A DNA stretch of 64,000 bases from Chthonomonas sp. (GTDB lineage Bacteria > Armatimonadota > Fimbriimonadia > Fimbriimonadales > Fimbriimonadaceae), in NCBI GenBank assembly GCA_016788115.1, contig JAEURR010000003.1:1-64000 (forward strand). The letters are read 5' to 3'. Positions 50,080 through 58,775 of the stretch are shown here, piece by piece; the stretch's first letter is position 1, and every line of letters starts with the position of its first letter. The position numbers and the translations under genes were made by a program. The notes below the pieces were generated by a model. The model was not told where the DNA came from. It made no database searches and saw only the letters and a list, made by a program, of their open reading frames with translations.

Positions 50080-52998
50080 ATGACAACTCCCTGGTCCATT
50101 CTCGCCGTCTCCAGCATGCTCGCGAGCCAAACGCAGCCCGCTGCGCGATTGGACCTGGGAACCTACAGTGTCGGCCCCGACAAGGTCCCCGTGACCTTCC
50201 CACTCGCCGGACTGGACGGCCCCGGCGGCGCGTACGCCGAGTTCGGGAACCTCCGTTTCCCGCTTCGCGCGGACGGCGCACTCATGGGTGGACGCATGGC
50301 CGACGGCGGCTGGGGCGAGTTTGCCAAGGGGTTCAGCAGCTACCGCGACGCGAGCGAAGGAACGATCACCTGGAAGACGAAGGTCTTCCTCTTTACGCGA
50401 GGCGAGCTCATCGCCAAACGGGGCCCAGCCAATTACAGTTTCCGTCGTGGCGTGATCGAGCCGTTTCAGATCGAGACGATCAAGGAATCGCTTGCACGAC
50501 TGGGCGCAATGGTCAAGGGGCAAACCTTCGGCCGGATCAACCTTGAATTCGACATCACGGTCGATGACGATGCCGAGCGGATGGAGCTCACCAACGACTC
50601 GGGGCCGGCGTTCGGTCGCGCTTTCGTCACCGACGTGCTCGAATCCCGTCTCAACGACTACAACTTCCAGGCAGAAGACGGGATCTACCGCGGACCGTAT
50701 CACGGCGTGCTCTGCATTCACGCCGGGCTCTCCGATCCGGTCCCTCTCATGAGCGTGCGCAGCATGCCCGTCAGCGCGGTCGGCTATTACGTCCGGTCTC
50801 CGCTCGCTGACGGCGATCGTCTCGCGCTCACATTGTACGCAAGCTGGATTCGCCAGCTCACTTGGCGTGCCGCTCGCTCAGGCTACGCGCTGCCCGTCAT
50901 CACAGGCGGGATCGACAATCCGTTCGCCACCCACGCCCGGCAATTCGTCACCGACGCCATGTGGCCCGCGATCATGGACCTCGGTCCGCTCGGCGGGACC
51001 GGCTACTTGGCCCGGAAGTACCCTTCCGGCCAAGCGGCAGGCAGTTGGGCCAGCGTCGCCGACGATCCTTACTCCAAGCTTCCCCGCTTCAACCTTGAGT
51101 CCACCACGAACTGGCTCAAGAACAGTCCAGATCGCGTCAGCGCCCTGCTGGACGGCGCAAGCGAAGACGTGGTCCACGATGGCCGACGGATGCTCGTCCC
51201 GCTCCAGAAGGCCAGCGCCATCACGGAGCTGGCCGCGCCGCAGTACGGTCTCAAGGCGATGGGCCTCGTGGTCGGCAGAACACAAGCCGCCGTCCTCTTC
51301 GAAGCCGAAAGCGCGGTTCCGGCCGACGCGAGTCTCTTTGCTGCGCCCAATGTCCTCGCGCGCATGGCTCAAGCAGACCCCACCCCTGGGCTGCGACAAG
51401 ACGATCAGAAGCGCTGGGTTTTCGTGGGCGACCCGAGCCAGCTGCTCCGGCCCGTTCCGATGCCTCCCGCATTCGATTACGTCGATTCGCTCCCCGAGAA
51501 CATTCGAACGGAAGGCGTGCTCCGAGTCGAGAAGGCGATGGACGCGGACCGCGGTCCGATCCTCGTGGTCAGCGAACGCGGTCTCTACCGTGGCGGCGTA
51601 GTTTGGTTCGCCGGAGGCATGCCGCCGGTCATCAATGGTGCCGCGCGTCCTGTCATCGATTTTTGGTTCCGGGCTTCCGGTCGCGATCCGTTCGCGGTCC
51701 AAATCGACTTCGCCAACGGTCGTCGAGGGTGGCTCGTGCTCGGTCCGCCAGTGGATGTGCCCGTAGGAGCCGAGGAGCGCGGAGAGGTGACCCAGTCGGT
51801 TGCAGTCGAGTCGCTTAACACGTGGCAACGAGTCCGTGTCGATCTCTCTGACATGCTTGAGCGCGTCGGAAGCTCTGCCATCCGTACTCTGGCCATCACG
51901 CCGCAACCCTACTACGAGTACTTCGAGCGGCAGCTGGTCGAGCCAGCCACTTTTGAGATCTCTGCGATCCGATTCGACTCCGACAAATCTAACCTCTCTG
52001 CCCCAGCCGTGCCACCGGACGCTGATCTTCTCTCGATGATCCAGCGGGCAGGTGCGATCGAACCAGGGACCGCGACCGAATCCGATATCAAGTTGTTAGG
52101 TGATCTTCTCGAAGTCCCCAATCGCCGCGGAACTATCGCCGCTGCCGATGTACTCACGCGCGTCAAGGCACCTTCGCTCGTCTCCGGCCTCGTTAGTGCA
52201 CTTCGATCCGGGCAACCGTGGGTTTCGATCACCGCCGCCAAGGCGCTCGCCAACCAAGGCACCGACGAGAGTTGGAGCGCACTCCGCCGTGCGCTGGAGA
52301 TCGGTCCGTTTGATCACACTCGCCTCGGTGCGATTCAAGCGCTCTCCGGCACCAAGGACGCGAGCTACGTCGGGGCGATCAGCTTGGCCTATGCCGCGAA
52401 GAGCTGGCGAGTCCGGCGCGCCGCGGTCGAGGCGCTCGCCTCCATCCAAACACGTGAGGCTAGCATCGTCGCGATCACCTTCCTCCGTGAGGTTGAACCC
52501 AACGTTCGTTTGGCAGTGGTCCGCACCGCCAACGCGGGCTTTGACCTCGCCGCACGGCGCCTTCTTTACGCCGCCGTCAACGATCCCAGCGAAGAGGTCC
52601 GAGCTTCGGCCGCCATCCGCTTGCTCGATGCGGTAGACGAGGAGATCAAGCTTGAAGCCATGAAAGTGGTCCGCGATGAGAGCCCAACCGTCCGTCGCCG
52701 CGTATTGGATGGCCTGGCCGAGAAGCCAAGTCCCGCTGCCCATGCCCTCATCCTTCAGTCACTGGGGGACCGGGTCGCCGACGTTCGCGCTGCCGCGCTT
52801 CGCGCCCTCACCAAAGGCCCCAAGGAGGTCGGCTTGGACGACCTGAGCCCGGTGCTCGACGATCGGGACCCGCGCGTCCAGCTCGAGCTGCTTGAGCTGA
52901 TGGTCGCGCGCAACGTCCCCATCTCCCCAGCGTTGCGCGCCGCATGGAAAACGAGCCCAGCACCCGAAGTGCGCGAGGCAGCGAGGCCCTTGCCGTGA
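50080..52998 (+). CDS. Large exported protein with C-terminal HEAT repeats
   Basis: 972 residues. Probable signal peptide at the N-terminus (MTTPWSILAVSSMLASQTQPAA). Residues 25-660 are beta-rich and unassigned. Residues about 690-970 are HEAT-type helix pairs (VSITAAKALANQGTDESWSAL, WRVRRAAVEALASIQ, EEVRASAAIRLLDAVD, DVRAAALRALT), a protein-binding solenoid. It starts 3 bases after mtnP and its stop overlaps the GTG of rpiB. Function unknown. Confidence 0.82.
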   Translation: MTTPWSILAVSSMLASQTQPAARLDLGTYSVGPDKVPVTFPLAGLDGPGGAYAEFGNLRFPLRADGALMGGRMADGGWGEFAKGFSSYRDASEGTITWKTKVFLFTRGELIAKRGPANYSFRRGVIEPFQIETIKESLARLGAMVKGQTFGRINLEFDITVDDDAERMELTNDSGPAFGRAFVTDVLESRLNDYNFQAEDGIYRGPYHGVLCIHAGLSDPVPLMSVRSMPVSAVGYYVRSPLADGDRLALTLYASWIRQLTWRAARSGYALPVITGGIDNPFATHARQFVTDAMWPAIMDLGPLGGTGYLARKYPSGQAAGSWASVADDPYSKLPRFNLESTTNWLKNSPDRVSALLDGASEDVVHDGRRMLVPLQKASAITELAAPQYGLKAMGLVVGRTQAAVLFEAESAVPADASLFAAPNVLARMAQADPTPGLRQDDQKRWVFVGDPSQLLRPVPMPPAFDYVDSLPENIRTEGVLRVEKAMDADRGPILVVSERGLYRGGVVWFAGGMPPVINGAARPVIDFWFRASGRDPFAVQIDFANGRRGWLVLGPPVDVPVGAEERGEVTQSVAVESLNTWQRVRVDLSDMLERVGSSAIRTLAITPQPYYEYFERQLVEPATFEISAIRFDSDKSNLSAPAVPPDADLLSMIQRAGAIEPGTATESDIKLLGDLLEVPNRRGTIAAADVLTRVKAPSLVSGLVSALRSGQPWVSITAAKALANQGTDESWSALRRALEIGPFDHTRLGAIQALSGTKDASYVGAISLAYAAKSWRVRRAAVEALASIQTREASIVAITFLREVEPNVRLAVVRTANAGFDLAARRLLYAAVNDPSEEVRASAAIRLLDAVDEEIKLEAMKVVRDESPTVRRRVLDGLAEKPSPAAHALILQSLGDRVADVRAAALRALTKGPKEVGLDDLSPVLDDRDPRVQLELLELMVARNVPISPALRAAWKTSPAPEVREAARPLP

Positions 52999-53432
52999 AA
53001 CTCATCTTCGGGTCGGACCATGCGGGCCACACCCTACGCCGCGTGCTCGTCCACACCGCGCGGCGGGATGGTCATGAATGCGTCGAGGTCGGTGCAATGG
53101 GCGAAGACCCGTACGACTACCCGGATGCTGCCGACGATCTCGCACCGAGAATCCTTTCGGGTGAGTTCGAACTCGGGGTGCTGATCTGCGGCAGTGGCAT
53201 CGGCATTTGCATACGCGCAAACCGCCATCCTGGTATCCGCGCAGCCAACTGTTGGAATGTCGAATCGGCAAAACTGGCACGTTTGCACAATCATGCAAAC
53301 GTTTTGTGCCTCGGTGAGCGTTTAGTAGAAGCAGAGCGGGCGGTCGAGATCCTCACCGCGTTCTTGAAGGCTCCGGAAGACCATGCGGAGCGTCACGAGC
53401 GTCGGGTCGGTAAGCTCGATGCAGCCATTTAG
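52995..53432 (+). CDS. rpiB: Ribose-5-phosphate isomerase B
   Basis: 145 residues from GTG 52995. GSDHAGHTLR, the catalytic-Cys region CGSGIGICIRANRHPGIRAA, NVESAKLARLHNHANVLCLGERL. It interconverts ribose-5-phosphate and ribulose-5-phosphate. The GTGA overlap with the HEAT-protein gene implies translational coupling. The upstream in-frame extension to 52944 is rejected. Confidence 0.93.
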   Translation: MKLIFGSDHAGHTLRRVLVHTARRDGHECVEVGAMGEDPYDYPDAADDLAPRILSGEFELGVLICGSGIGICIRANRHPGIRAANCWNVESAKLARLHNHANVLCLGERLVEAERAVEILTAFLKAPEDHAERHERRVGKLDAAI

Positions 53433-53447
53433 GTTATCGGAGTCTTC

Positions 53448-54743
53448 ATGCAGAAAGGAACTTCAAAGCTATTTGCATTCGCGCTGGGATTCCTCGCGGC
53501 CGGAGCTATCTTCACCGGCGCGGTCCTGCGGGAGAAATCCACCAACGGATCGATCGACTGGGGCAACTCAGCCAATCACGTCGTGCTCATGGCCGACTCG
53601 CAGTCAAACAGCGTTGACATCCCTGAGTCGGTTTACTTCGCCAAGCTGATCGAGCTTCTGCAAGCCCAGTACGTCGAGAAGCCGGAAGCGACGGAGAAAC
53701 TGGCGATCGGCGCAGTGAAGGGCATGGTCGTGAGTCTGCAAGATCCCCTGGCCACCTTCATGGATAAGACCCAGTTCGAGGCGTTCGCCAACGCCATGCA
53801 CGGCAAGTTCGAAGGGATCGGCGCAGAGCTCAAGTTTGAATTCGATCCGACCGCGCTTGAGAAGCTTAAGAAGCGGCTCAAGGGCGAGGGGGTTGAGGAC
53901 CTGGACTCGGCCACCCTGATTCCGAATGTCGTCGTCAGCGCAATCGTCCCCGGCAGCAACGCGGCAAAGGCCGGGCTGAAAATTGGGGATCAGATCATCG
54001 CTGTAGACGGCAAGACCGTCCTCAGCACGGCCATGGTCGAGTCGCTCCGCTCGGAAATCGAGACGGTCCGCAAGTCGAAGCTCGACGAAAATGCGATGAA
54101 CCTCAGGCTTCGCAGCATCAGCGACCGGTTCACCAATAGTACGACCCCGCTGCGAGTAAAGGATCACCTCACGCTCGGCGCGACCGGCGAGTCCACGGTG
54201 GAGTGGGAACGTGGCACAAACGTTTTCAACGCCAAAATCGCCAAAGCACGCCAGACGTGGGAACCGATCCAGGAGCGCGGCGACGCCGTTGAAGTCCGCT
54301 TCTTCGACGGCGCAGACCGCGAACTGGCATCCCGGCTCGATGACAAGAAAGCGCTCACCATTGATCTGCGCAACAGCACGCAAGGAAGTTTCGAGACACT
54401 TCAAAAGATGCTCGACCTAGTCGCCCCCGCGGGTGTCTACGGCGAGATTGTCACCGATAAGAATGCAAAGCCAACACGGCTAGTGTCCCAGGGACAGCGC
54501 ACCACGCCGCTCGACCTGACACTGATCGTCGATAAGTCCACTCGCGGAGCAGCCGAGGTGTTTGCCCTCGCACTCCAATCACGGAAGCTCGCCAAGATCG
54601 TCGGCGGCCCAACTGCTGGCGAGAAAGCAATCATCAAAACCGTTTTGTTGCCGGACGGAAGCGGATACACGCTCCCGGTGGGCGAATTCCATCCGGTGCT
54701 CGACACCAAAGTTGCCCGCGCCGAAAGGGAGGTGCGCCCGTGA
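53448..54743 (+). CDS. S41/CtpA-family protein lacking the catalytic serine (pseudoprotease)
   Basis: 431 residues with an N-terminal membrane anchor (FAFALGFLAAGAIFTGAVL), a PDZ-like region (ATLIPNVVVSAIVPGSNAAKAGLKIGDQIIAVDGKTV) and an S41 core. Where active CtpA proteins read SASASE, this one has TRGAAE, so the serine position is Gly367. The lysine is displaced (Glu392-Lys393). It is therefore probably inactive, and may regulate or partner the active protease encoded next, whose start overlaps its stop. Confidence 0.85.
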   Translation: MQKGTSKLFAFALGFLAAGAIFTGAVLREKSTNGSIDWGNSANHVVLMADSQSNSVDIPESVYFAKLIELLQAQYVEKPEATEKLAIGAVKGMVVSLQDPLATFMDKTQFEAFANAMHGKFEGIGAELKFEFDPTALEKLKKRLKGEGVEDLDSATLIPNVVVSAIVPGSNAAKAGLKIGDQIIAVDGKTVLSTAMVESLRSEIETVRKSKLDENAMNLRLRSISDRFTNSTTPLRVKDHLTLGATGESTVEWERGTNVFNAKIAKARQTWEPIQERGDAVEVRFFDGADRELASRLDDKKALTIDLRNSTQGSFETLQKMLDLVAPAGVYGEIVTDKNAKPTRLVSQGQRTTPLDLTLIVDKSTRGAAEVFALALQSRKLAKIVGGPTAGEKAIIKTVLLPDGSGYTLPVGEFHPVLDTKVARAEREVRP

Positions 54744-55990
54744 ATCCGGTCCTCAAAACTGTAACCGTCCCTCTCGTGATCGCTTCAGGACTCTTCCTCG
54801 GCTATATGGGCCGTGACTTCCAGAAGGGCGATTTTACGATGTCTGCGCTCACCTCGGCACTCCGCAAGCAGGAGCCGACCAAGGTCGATCCGGCCGAGCT
54901 CTTTAAGGGTGCATATCAGGATATTGAAACGAGCTACTACCGCTCGCTAGACCCGATCGAATTGAAGTACCACGCCATGGAAGGGGCCATGGCCTCGCTT
55001 GGAGATCCCCACACCGTCTTCATGAACCCTAAGTTCACGGAGGACTTTCTGAAGGAGACCCGTGGTTCCGCCACGTACGCGGGCATCGGCGCACGGCTCT
55101 CAGGCGATACCCAAGGGGCGAAGCTCGCCACAGTTTTCAAAGGCAGCCCGGCTTCGGCGGGCGGACTCCAGCCCGGTGACATCATCGTTGCCGTCGGCGC
55201 GACAAAAGTCGCGGGCATGGAGATTGACAAGATTGTCGGGCTCATCAAAGGGCCCGAAGGAACTCGGGTCAAGCTGACCATCTTACGCCCGAGCAGCGGC
55301 AAAACCCTGCAGCTGGAAATTCGGCGCGAACGGATCAACATTCCGACCGCCGACGGGCTCATTTTGCCAGGCACTCGCGTGGCCTATGTGATGGTCTACG
55401 GCTTCGCCGAGACGACCCCCAAGCAGTTCCGGTCTCAGATCCAAGACCTGGATGCCCAAGGGATCGACGGGCTCATCATTGACCTCCGCGGCAACCCCGG
55501 CGGCCTGCTCGATTCCGCCGCCGAGATGCTCGGGATCTTCACCGAGAACAAGCTCGTCGTCCGAACCGTCGGTCGCGATTACAAGGAAGAGCCGGTGTAC
55601 ACGCCGATGAACGAGCGCATGGACCTGGCTTATCCCGTCGTTGTACTGGTCAATGAGGATTCCGCAAGCGCCAGCGAGATCTTTGCAGGAGTTCTCCGCG
55701 ACTACCGCCTCGCGACGCTCGTCGGCGAACACACCTACGGCAAGGCCTCGGTCCAGCGGATGTTCAACCTCCCCGATGGAGCCGCTGCCAAGGTCACTAT
55801 CGCGAAGTACTTCTTGCCCAGCGGGCACGACATCATGCGCAAGGTCGATGATGAGGGCGGCTACATCAGCGGCGGACTCAAGCCAGATGTGGAAGTGAAG
55901 CTCAACCTCGGGCCAAACACCATGCTGGGCAACCCCGAGCGGGATAATCAGCTTCAGAAGGCACTTGAGGTCATCGCCAGCAAGCGCTAA
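54740..55990 (+). CDS. ctpA: C-terminal processing peptidase, S41 family
   Basis: 416 residues from GTG 54740, with GGGAGG about 8 bases upstream. N-terminal anchor, PDZ domain (TVFKGSPASAGGLQPGDIIVAVGATKV), then the protease core with LIIDLRGNPGG and catalytic VNEDSASASEI (Ser310), HTYGKASVQ (Lys335, Gln339). Active-site spacing matches CtpA/CtpB. It trims C-termini of envelope proteins. Paired with the serine-less paralogue by a GTGA overlap. Confidence 0.93.
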   Translation: MNPVLKTVTVPLVIASGLFLGYMGRDFQKGDFTMSALTSALRKQEPTKVDPAELFKGAYQDIETSYYRSLDPIELKYHAMEGAMASLGDPHTVFMNPKFTEDFLKETRGSATYAGIGARLSGDTQGAKLATVFKGSPASAGGLQPGDIIVAVGATKVAGMEIDKIVGLIKGPEGTRVKLTILRPSSGKTLQLEIRRERINIPTADGLILPGTRVAYVMVYGFAETTPKQFRSQIQDLDAQGIDGLIIDLRGNPGGLLDSAAEMLGIFTENKLVVRTVGRDYKEEPVYTPMNERMDLAYPVVVLVNEDSASASEIFAGVLRDYRLATLVGEHTYGKASVQRMFNLPDGAAAKVTIAKYFLPSGHDIMRKVDDEGGYISGGLKPDVEVKLNLGPNTMLGNPERDNQLQKALEVIASKR

Positions 55991-55993
55991 CGA

Positions 55994-56377
55994 TTAGTAG
56001 ACCGGGAGCTTTTCCTGCAGTTCGGTGCGGAAGGGCTCCAGGTGCTTGACGATGCGGTTCTCCTCGTCCAGCAGGAGCATCTTGGGTTCAATCGGCTCAT
56101 CGGTCAAATCGAAGGCCGCGATGATCACCCGGTCGCCCGGCTGGAAAAACCGCGCTGCGCCGCCGTTCAACCCAACGACCCCGCTAACGCCCCCGAAGAC
56201 GTAGGTGATAATCCGAGCGTCGTGATCGACAGCCCACACGTGCACCAATTCGCCATCCACGATGCCCGCAGCATCGAGAACCGCACGATCGACCTCAATG
56301 CTGCCCACGTAGTCGGGGTTTGCATAGGTTACGCGCGCGTGATGAAGCTTCGCCTTAAGAATCTGTGAGAGCCGCAT
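55994..56377 (-). CDS. panD: Aspartate 1-decarboxylase
   Basis: 127 residues. The self-cleavage site Gly-Ser in NPDYVGSIEVD, SGVVGLNGGAARFFQPGDRVIIAAF and the tail typical of PanD. The serine becomes the pyruvoyl cofactor. It makes beta-alanine for pantothenate. It overlaps the 3' end of ccmF by 23 bp, an unusual partner. Confidence 0.93.
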   Translation of the reverse strand: MRLSQILKAKLHHARVTYANPDYVGSIEVDRAVLDAAGIVDGELVHVWAVDHDARIITYVFGGVSGVVGLNGGAARFFQPGDRVIIAAFDLTDEPIEPKMLLLDEENRIVKHLEPFRTELQEKLPVY

Positions 56378-58775
56378 TTGTGTTTGAAGTGTGTCCTTCG
56401 CCTGCCCTATCTTGGGGCTCTATATTCGAACCCACATCTTTATTAGCGCCGGAGCCGGCCGCTCCGTTGCGACGGCGGTACCAAGCGGACCAAAATCCGC
56501 CTAAGGTCATGATACCAGCCCCTACCCACACCAACAAGGTCATGGGCTTGTAGTACACGTCGAGCGGGAACAGCGGATTCTGGTAATAAACCTGGAGTGT
56601 GACGTCTTGCGTGGCCGCATCCATACGGTCCAGAGCGATCGTCAAGCCGCCTACGTCGGCTCGGAAATGCTCCGGTCCCTGATCGGTGATCGCCATTCCC
56701 GGGCTGACCTTGACGGCGTCGCTCCCCTTGGTCTGCACCAAGAGGTCGGCAAAGAACTTGGTCCCCATCACCCCCGCCTCACCTTCGCGTCGGAAGTTTT
56801 GGTAGGTCACCGTCGTGTCATCCACCTGCAAGCTTTGACCCTTCTTGAGCGTTGTGGGTTCCCCGGCCTCAAACTGCATGGGATAGACGGCCACGTAGAT
56901 GTCGTGCGTCCCGTTCACATGGATCGCCGGGTGGACCGTCGGCGTCGGCTCGCCCTCTCCTGAGAAGGAGTAGTACAGCTCGGGGCTGGAATCAAACCTC
57001 TCGCCACTCAAGCTCTTAAACTCGAAATCGACTTTGTTCCCGCGCTTGGAATAGTCGCGGGCATCGCCATCCTTGAGGTTGATGACATAGCCCAGTGCAA
57101 AGCCGGGTGTTCCTGCTTGGATGACCGTCTGCTCCTTGCGTTGGAGCCCACGGCTTACGATGAGGCCCAGAACCGCCACGACCACGCCAACGTGCGTGAG
57201 CATGCTCCCGATGCCACCCTTCGAGCGCCGCCCTAGCTCAAGCAACTTGGACATATTCGCGCATAGCGTGAACAAACAAAGCCACGACAAGAACAGAATC
57301 CAGTTGGTAACTGGGATGGTGAAACCGAACGGGGCCCAAAGCGAATCCTCTGGCGCAGGCTTGAACTCGTTGTGCACGCCGTATTTCAGCCATAGGATCA
57401 TGCCTGCGAGCAGCACCAACGAAGCCTGAAGAGATCGACCAATACGGTTCAGTACGACCTTCAGCGAGGACCCTCGCCAGCTCAAGAACGGTCCAATCGC
57501 CATCCCCAGGAGCAATGGAATCAGAATCCAGACGAGGATCCGGTTGTACATCGCCTCCTCGACTGCCTTCGGCGCTTTCCCTTGCAGCACGAACAACGCC
57601 GGGATACTCATGCCGACGCCCGCGCCGATCGCCATCGCCAGCAACAACCACTGCGCGGAGACGAACGCGCCCGCACGGCTGAGAAACGACGACGGCTCGG
57701 TCTCCGGCTGCAACTCTTGCCATGAGCGGATGCGCTTGAGCCACATTCCCAGGTAGCCCAACCCAAACACGCCGAGAATGCCGATCAAGACCCAACGCGC
57801 ACCCGCGTCCATCTCGGCAAAGCTGTGCACGCTCTGGTCACCGTACACTCCGGAACGGGTCAAAAACGTGCCGTAAATGAACGTAAGTAGCCCGGTGCCG
57901 GCCAAGAACAGGTTCGAATTCCGACCGGTACCGCGGGTGGTCTGAAGAAGAAGCCCGTGGATCAGCACCACGGTCCACAGCCAAGGGACAAAGCTTGTGT
58001 TCTCGACTGGATCCCATGCCCAGAATCCGCCCCACCCGAGCGTCTCGTAAGCCCAAAATCCGCCCATGCACAGGCCGATTCCCAGCAGCGTGGCGGAAAC
58101 CAGCGCCCAGGGACGAGCGAAGCTCACCCACTTGCTCGAGTCACCCTGGGCCAGCGCCGCAAATCCCAGCGAGAACAAAACGATCAGCGAACCGAAGCCG
58201 AGGAAGATCACCGGCGGGTGAATGGTGATCCAGTAGTTGATCAGCGCGGGCGTCATGCCGCTCCCTTCCGGGGGCATCAGCCGATTGTCGATCATCTCGA
58301 CTTTGAACGGGGACTCGTACGCGAGAATCCCCGCGAGCGCGGCGAGAAACATCGCCGAAGAAACGCTAAACCACCGCCGGTAGTCCGGGAGCTTGCGCAC
58401 CGCCAGCATCGCGAAGAGCGCGCTCGTCAGCGCCCACAGCAGGAAACTTCCCTCCTGCCCCGCCCACATGGCGGCGATCAGGTACGGCTTCTCCAGCGTG
58501 GTATCGGTGTGCCGGAAGACATAGCTGTACTGAAACTGATGGGTCTGAATCAGAATCCCGAGCACTGCGAACGCGGCGAAAAATGAACTGCCGCCGAGCG
58601 TGAAGCTCCAAGCGGCCCAGCGCGCCAAACTCGGGCGCTTGCCCTGGAGCAGCCACAGCACCGTAGACAGCACGAGGACCCCCAGCGAAAGAGTGATGAA
58701 CCCGCGGCCCACTAGCCCCAAGGTCATGGCCCACTGCGCAGGGGCATGCAGTTCAACGTGATTGTGGGGATCCAC
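56355..58775 (-). CDS. ccmF: Cytochrome c haem lyase subunit CcmF
   Basis: 806 residues, about 15 membrane segments. The WWD domain GGFWAWDPVENTSFVPWL is clear, as are conserved haem-ligand histidines (TIHPPVIFLGFGS and HGLLLQTT). It attaches haem to apocytochrome c in system I. Only ccmE and ccmF of that system are here, so the remaining ccm genes are elsewhere or different. It follows ccmE by 5 bp. Confidence 0.95.
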   Translation of the reverse strand: MDPHNHVELHAPAQWAMTLGLVGRGFITLSLGVLVLSTVLWLLQGKRPSLARWAAWSFTLGGSSFFAAFAVLGILIQTHQFQYSYVFRHTDTTLEKPYLIAAMWAGQEGSFLLWALTSALFAMLAVRKLPDYRRWFSVSSAMFLAALAGILAYESPFKVEMIDNRLMPPEGSGMTPALINYWITIHPPVIFLGFGSLIVLFSLGFAALAQGDSSKWVSFARPWALVSATLLGIGLCMGGFWAYETLGWGGFWAWDPVENTSFVPWLWTVVLIHGLLLQTTRGTGRNSNLFLAGTGLLTFIYGTFLTRSGVYGDQSVHSFAEMDAGARWVLIGILGVFGLGYLGMWLKRIRSWQELQPETEPSSFLSRAGAFVSAQWLLLAMAIGAGVGMSIPALFVLQGKAPKAVEEAMYNRILVWILIPLLLGMAIGPFLSWRGSSLKVVLNRIGRSLQASLVLLAGMILWLKYGVHNEFKPAPEDSLWAPFGFTIPVTNWILFLSWLCLFTLCANMSKLLELGRRSKGGIGSMLTHVGVVVAVLGLIVSRGLQRKEQTVIQAGTPGFALGYVINLKDGDARDYSKRGNKVDFEFKSLSGERFDSSPELYYSFSGEGEPTPTVHPAIHVNGTHDIYVAVYPMQFEAGEPTTLKKGQSLQVDDTTVTYQNFRREGEAGVMGTKFFADLLVQTKGSDAVKVSPGMAITDQGPEHFRADVGGLTIALDRMDAATQDVTLQVYYQNPLFPLDVYYKPMTLLVWVGAGIMTLGGFWSAWYRRRNGAAGSGANKDVGSNIEPQDRAGEGHTSNTNAALTDS

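Follow-up and report, generated by a model that had tools for sequence, protein, structure and literature searches.

The S41 gene pair and its locus

The window, by which we mean the whole stretch of 64,000 nucleotides analysed here (contig JAEURR010000003.1 of Chthonomonas sp.), carries two adjacent genes of the S41 protease family, A and B (Table 1). An earlier note on this DNA had described them as an active and a serine-less S41 gene that overlap by GTGA, and our coordinates and bases agree with that description.

Table 1. Features of the A–B locus, in window positions
Feature	Position	Strand	Remark or basis
rpiB (ribose-5-phosphate isomerase B)	52944..53432	+	stop 15 bases before A
CGGAG, Shine-Dalgarno-like site for A	53438..53442	+	5 bases before ATG; sequence, inferred
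Gene A, predicted catalytically dead S41/CTP homologue	53448..54743	+	431 aa; predicted membrane anchor at the N-terminus, then CtpB-type N-terminal domain, PDZ domain interrupted by a helical insert, and S41 core
A-specific helical PDZ insert, residues 192-233	54021..54146	+	in all aligned A, in no B
Codon Gly367 of A, at catalytic serine position	54546..54548	+	alignment
Codon Glu392 of A, at catalytic lysine position	54621..54623	+	alignment
GGGAGG, Shine-Dalgarno-like site for B, inside A	54727..54732	+	7 bases before GTG; sequence, inferred
GTGA stop/start overlap, 4 bases common to A and B	54740..54743	+	sequence
Gene B, predicted S41A C-terminal processing protease of the active type, with a predicted membrane anchor at the N-terminus	54740..55990	+	416 aa
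Codon Ser310 of B, nucleophile	55667..55669	+	alignment
Codon Lys335 of B, general base	55742..55744	+	alignment

PDZ and Peptidase_S41 domains were found above the Pfam cut-off in both proteins, with Peptidase_S41 (PF03572) scores of 54.6 bits for A and 169.7 bits for B against a cut-off of 24. The CtpB N-terminal domain PF22694 was also matched in both, above the cut-off in A and just at it in B. The two differed in the NCBIfam model of the C-terminal processing peptidases, TIGR00225, which B passed with 282.9 bits against a cut-off of 218.6, whereas A reached only 106.7 bits and failed. With its Ser-Lys dyad and Gln, its PDZ domain and its TIGR00225 match, B is by sequence an S41A C-terminal processing peptidase. 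Because A has no Ser-Lys dyad, it is to be classed as a predicted non-peptidase homologue outside the active S41A family, despite its S41 domain and fold. Both proteins have a hydrophobic helix at the N-terminus; most probably this helix anchors A and B in the inner membrane and the remainder lies outside the cytoplasm. A gave no match to a TPR domain and is thus not a TPR lipoprotein of the LbcA or NlpI kind; its parts are PDZ, S41 and the hydrophobic N-terminal anchor instead.

The rpiB family match starts only at residue 19 of the called frame, and the true start of rpiB is therefore probably near 52998. The stretch from 52700 to 56400 gave no promoter-like site of the sigma-70 type, which weakly suggests that rpiB, A and B are probably carried on one transcript. 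Between the MTAP gene and rpiB, upstream of the pair, lies a gene for a 972-aa protein with C-terminal HEAT repeats (50080-52998), which recurs at the same place across much of the class. The 2.4-Mb genome of the window has six S41 domains. Three of these, further to those of A and B, lie at G000:C3:68913 (about 4.9 kb beyond the window), C3:399841 and C9:11812, in open frames of 1031-1101 aa, a size that resembles that of tricorn-type proteases.

Residues lost and regions kept in A

The motif S308-A-S310-A-S-E of B is replaced in A by T365-R366-G367-A-A-E370, and G334-K335 of B corresponds to G391-E392-K393 of A, in which the lysine K393 is displaced by one position. The earlier note had read the same changes from the window (TRGAAE in place of SASASE, serine to Gly367, a displaced lysine) together with the retention of Ser310, Lys335 and Gln339 in B, and the alignment bears out both statements. 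The loss in A is larger than stated there, since Ile396 occupies the position of B Gln339. Among the B copies whose alignment reaches the position, Ser is kept in 110/110, Lys in 109/109 and Gln in 109/109. The A alignment contains 115 copies, 114 of which have letters at both the Ser and Lys positions; in these, Ser is replaced in 104 (mostly by Gly or Asn) and Lys in 112 (mostly by Asp), and no copy has Ser and Lys together (0/114). A third position has been discussed in Pseudomonas aeruginosa CtpA (PaCtpA), where His84 may be the acid of a triad (PMC11021448). It corresponds to His91 of B and to Leu101 in the A of the window, and is variable across A. As the catalytic residues are missing, A is predicted to be catalytically inactive. 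Chance mutation or sequencing error as the source of the change is ruled out by its recurrence in more than 110 genomes.

Ten A copies of other Armatimonadota families (loci L135, L138-L140, L142, L143, L145, L151, L159 and L163) keep the Ser and have lost the Lys. Loss may have begun with the lysine; alternatively, a structural role may have preserved the serine.

Conservation within A differs from domain to domain. The N-terminal dimerisation region is as conserved in A as in B (2.04 vs 2.08 bits per column), whereas the cap (1.74 vs 2.22), the end of the PDZ domain (1.64 vs 2.29) and the core (1.84 vs 2.41) are relaxed in A. The carboxylate-binding loop of the PDZ domain is kept, with A172, G176, G180 and D181 each present in 111-113 of the 115 copies, and the hinge before the PDZ domain is also kept. 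In Bacillus subtilis CtpB, Arg168 senses the substrate (PMC12749690). The equivalent position, 170 in B, is R or K in 110/112 B and mostly T or S in A, so that retention of a substrate-sensing arginine by the PDZ domain of A is ruled out. The helical insert in the PDZ domain of A comprises about 38 residues. In the family of the window, the tail after the core is mostly lost from A (median 14 residues vs 72 in B), and the C-terminal helix that B has is absent from A.

Conservation, origin and gene neighbourhood

In the own family and order of the window, 61/61 genomes matched. Across the class Fimbriimonadia, the A profile at 1e-8 matched 113/113 genomes, about 105 of them at full strength, and most of the remaining genomes are less complete or have gene A in pieces. 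A lies directly upstream of B in the 56 class loci in which both genes could be measured, and 37 of these have the 4-base overlap. Beyond the class, the order of A immediately followed by B on one strand recurs in 54 more loci, often with a few to tens of bases between the genes in place of the overlap. Because the spacing varies elsewhere in the phylum, the trait conserved across the phylum is the adjacency and not the overlap itself. The coupled synthesis proposed in the earlier note is thus plausible within the class, given these 37 overlaps and the Shine-Dalgarno-like site before the GTG of B, but the overlap on which it was based is not consistently kept elsewhere in the phylum. The conservation of the partner, which the same note had named as a check, held up: A is present in nearly all genomes of the class and widely in the phylum, is under purifying selection, and stands beside an active B wherever the contig lets this be seen. 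Essentially all class genomes of adequate completeness have the A–B pair, and it also occurs in many other Armatimonadota families. At 1e-40, 192/291 genomes of the phylum matched. The pair itself can be no more frequent than this, since the threshold is also reached by some single active proteases, L176 and L179 being examples. A contig scan with two short motifs, directed at the pair outside Armatimonadota, matched only Armatimonadota/Fimbriimonadia records. From their sequences, B and A are, respectively, an S41 C-terminal processing protease and its dedicated, predicted dead paralogue, present across much of the phylum.

In many families of Armatimonadota, one active S41 gene is present with no A within the stretch that was fetched; such loci in several families are L184-L188, L212-L218, L220-L237 and L239. 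At some loci, such as L210, L211, L219 and L238, the apparent lack of A reflects an A at the contig edge or below the threshold. In the metagenome-assembled genome G025 (L063:6615-7787), A is split into two open frames, through assembly error or recent loss.

A forms one clade with support of 100 in a FastTree phylogeny of 232 sequences with some long branches, and is therefore most simply traced to a single ancient duplication. Comparisons of close relatives gave a dN/dS of 0.09-0.21 in A and of 0.02-0.19 in B. A is under purifying selection and is not decaying; these values rule out a decaying pseudogene. A evolves faster than B, with mean identities of 27% and 38%, respectively.

The gene neighbourhood of the pair differs among families. 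The order ftsE-ftsX-M23 peptidase-A-B occurs in five loci, which belong to three families (f26, f27 and f32), and the M23 peptidase of these clusters has a PcsB-type coiled coil. A polysaccharide deacetylase then follows in four of the five, and a gene of this deacetylase cluster follows B in twelve loci in all. In the family of the window the neighbours are MTAP, the HEAT-repeat protein and rpiB, and in family f2 rpiB comes after B. The ftsX gene and the only M23 gene detected in the genome of the window lie together on another contig. The cell-wall link of the pair is therefore drawn from other families and from the known substrates of C-terminal processing proteases (CTPs), not from the class of the window: wall hydrolases, M23 enzymes among them, are degraded by CtpA and Prc (PMC11021448).

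Two further arrangements were seen. In family f19 (L126, L127, L128 and L158), motA-motB-like genes stand directly before A, and in family f5 (L070, L071, L073, L074, L078, L084 and L093), a protein of about 880 aa, which matches F5/8 type C weakly at most, is encoded after the pair on the same strand.

Possible role of A in the protease

The closest solved relatives of A and B are CtpB, CtpA of Pseudomonas and Helicobacter, and the D1 protease. AlphaFold models were built from 17-sequence alignments, with one best model each (pLDDT 80.5 for A and 82.1 for B). The model of A matched the chains labelled B of the PaCtpA-LbcA structures with TM-scores of 0.49-0.51 and those labelled A with 0.37-0.38; against the chains of Helicobacter pylori CtpA described as resting it gave 0.41-0.49. 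The model of B showed the opposite preference, with 0.66-0.68 for the A chains of PaCtpA and 0.45-0.47 for the B chains, the active PaCtpA chain being inferred from these same matches. Against CtpB, it gave 0.53-0.54 for the active and 0.44 for the resting state. A thus models as resting-like and B as active-like, a fit to the reading given below that is weak because the alignments are shallow, each protein has one best model and VIA-align Z-scores do not separate the resting and active states for A. Mutual information between A and B over 107 pairs gave a signal above shuffles that is confounded by phylogeny, as the strata (69, 37 and 1) were too broad to remove it.

Our data lean slightly towards a reading in which A and B together make up a single envelope-anchored protease, with A as the permanently resting partner of B. 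A would pair with B through the common N-terminal helical dimerisation region, and B would be the sole catalytic subunit, A being unable to become active. The PDZ domain of A could bind the C-termini of substrates, or keep B closed by fixing its PDZ domain and cap in place, so that A would set when B opens and would present substrates to it. The resting role of a CtpA dimer would have been handed to a separate gene, which would genetically fix a dimer with one active and one resting subunit. The presence of the pair in the ftsE-ftsX-M23 cluster of several families makes peptidoglycan hydrolases or other envelope proteins the likely substrates. Against this reading count the families that lack A and have one active S41, as this type of protease can work without A.

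It is also possible, though distinctly less probable, that A acts on its own as a PDZ receptor or adaptor for substrates. In the manner of LbcA or NlpI, it would bind envelope proteins by their C-termini, deliver them to a homo-oligomer of B and replace no subunit of the dimer. Adaptors of CTPs are known (PMC11021448, PMC12749690), and the strong conservation of the peptide-binding loop of the PDZ domain, in a protein that has lost the sensor arginine and catalysis and has its own helical PDZ insert in all copies, would suit such a role. An adaptor, however, leaves unexplained why the N-terminal dimerisation region of A is as conserved as that of B, and why the whole S41 core is retained in more than 110 species.

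A decoy or protector, which would shield substrate tails also bound by B and act as an antagonist set by the ratio of the two proteins, appears improbable. A has the same fold and the PDZ loop without catalysis, and co-translation would fix the ratio of A to B, but in a simple competitor there would be no need for strict adjacency or for conservation of the N-terminal dimerisation region. That A catalyses some other, unrecognised reaction via other residues is more doubtful still. Two positions by the old active site, D306 (115/115) and T365 (110/115), are near-invariant in A; D306, however, belongs to a DLR motif common to B, and there is no consistent polar substitute for the lysine (D, E, L, N, S, Q, H and R all occur). 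That A is a functionless duplicate kept only by its operon hardly deserves belief, because the loss and variability of its catalytic residues and its faster evolution are outweighed by its low dN/dS, its single ancient origin and its retention in essentially all adequately complete class genomes and in many families beyond.

The reading of A as the resting subunit of a protease shared with B has parallels in known systems. B shares domain order, the Ser-Lys-Gln triad and fold with CtpB of B. subtilis (S41A; PDB 4c2c-4c2h), and A shares its fold and N-terminal domain. Both subunits of the CtpB homodimer can act (PMC12749690), whereas one of the two genes of the A–B pair is predicted to encode a dead protein, which lacks an Arg168 equivalent and carries a PDZ insert. 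In the CtpA-LbcA complex of P. aeruginosa (PDB 8sxe-8sxh), one subunit of each CtpA N-dimer is active and the other resting (PMC11021448). This is the same asymmetry as proposed for A and B, there seen in solved structures, but there a single gene encodes both subunits and the activator is a TPR lipoprotein, whereas A is an S41 paralogue. In H. pylori CtpA (PDB 9jr1, 9ksp and 9ku0), only one subunit per N-dimer can be active, which parallels the proposed A–B dimer, and activation is self-contained without an outside adaptor (PMC12749690). Unlike A–B, H. pylori CtpA is a homo-hexamer in which both states come from one gene. Prc-NlpI of E. coli resembles A–B as an S41 protease with a dedicated partner that controls wall hydrolases (PMC11021448), but this partner is an unrelated TPR lipoprotein. 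Dead protease homologues serve as regulators in iRhom-ADAM17 and in CspC:CspA of C. difficile, as may A, although those proteases have other folds. We found no description of an S41 pseudoprotease pair of this kind in the open-licence literature searched.

The conserved dead twin suggests a built-in regulatory or substrate-binding subunit. More tentatively, the pair may be an obligate hetero-oligomeric CTP at the scale of the phylum, in which duplication and loss of the active site fixed the resting half as a gene of its own, and A would gate B and serve as its PDZ receptor during peptidoglycan remodelling; we hold this wider form to be somewhat short of an even chance. The known modes of CTP control are substrate, TPR lipoproteins or asymmetric homo-oligomers, and a dedicated dead paralogue would be a different one. 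If the proposal is true, it becomes testable why a CtpA dimer has just one active subunit, since with a separate gene for each state the two could be mutated one at a time, something hard to do in a homodimer. The pair would also be a candidate regulator of wall hydrolases in Armatimonadota, a poorly studied phylum.
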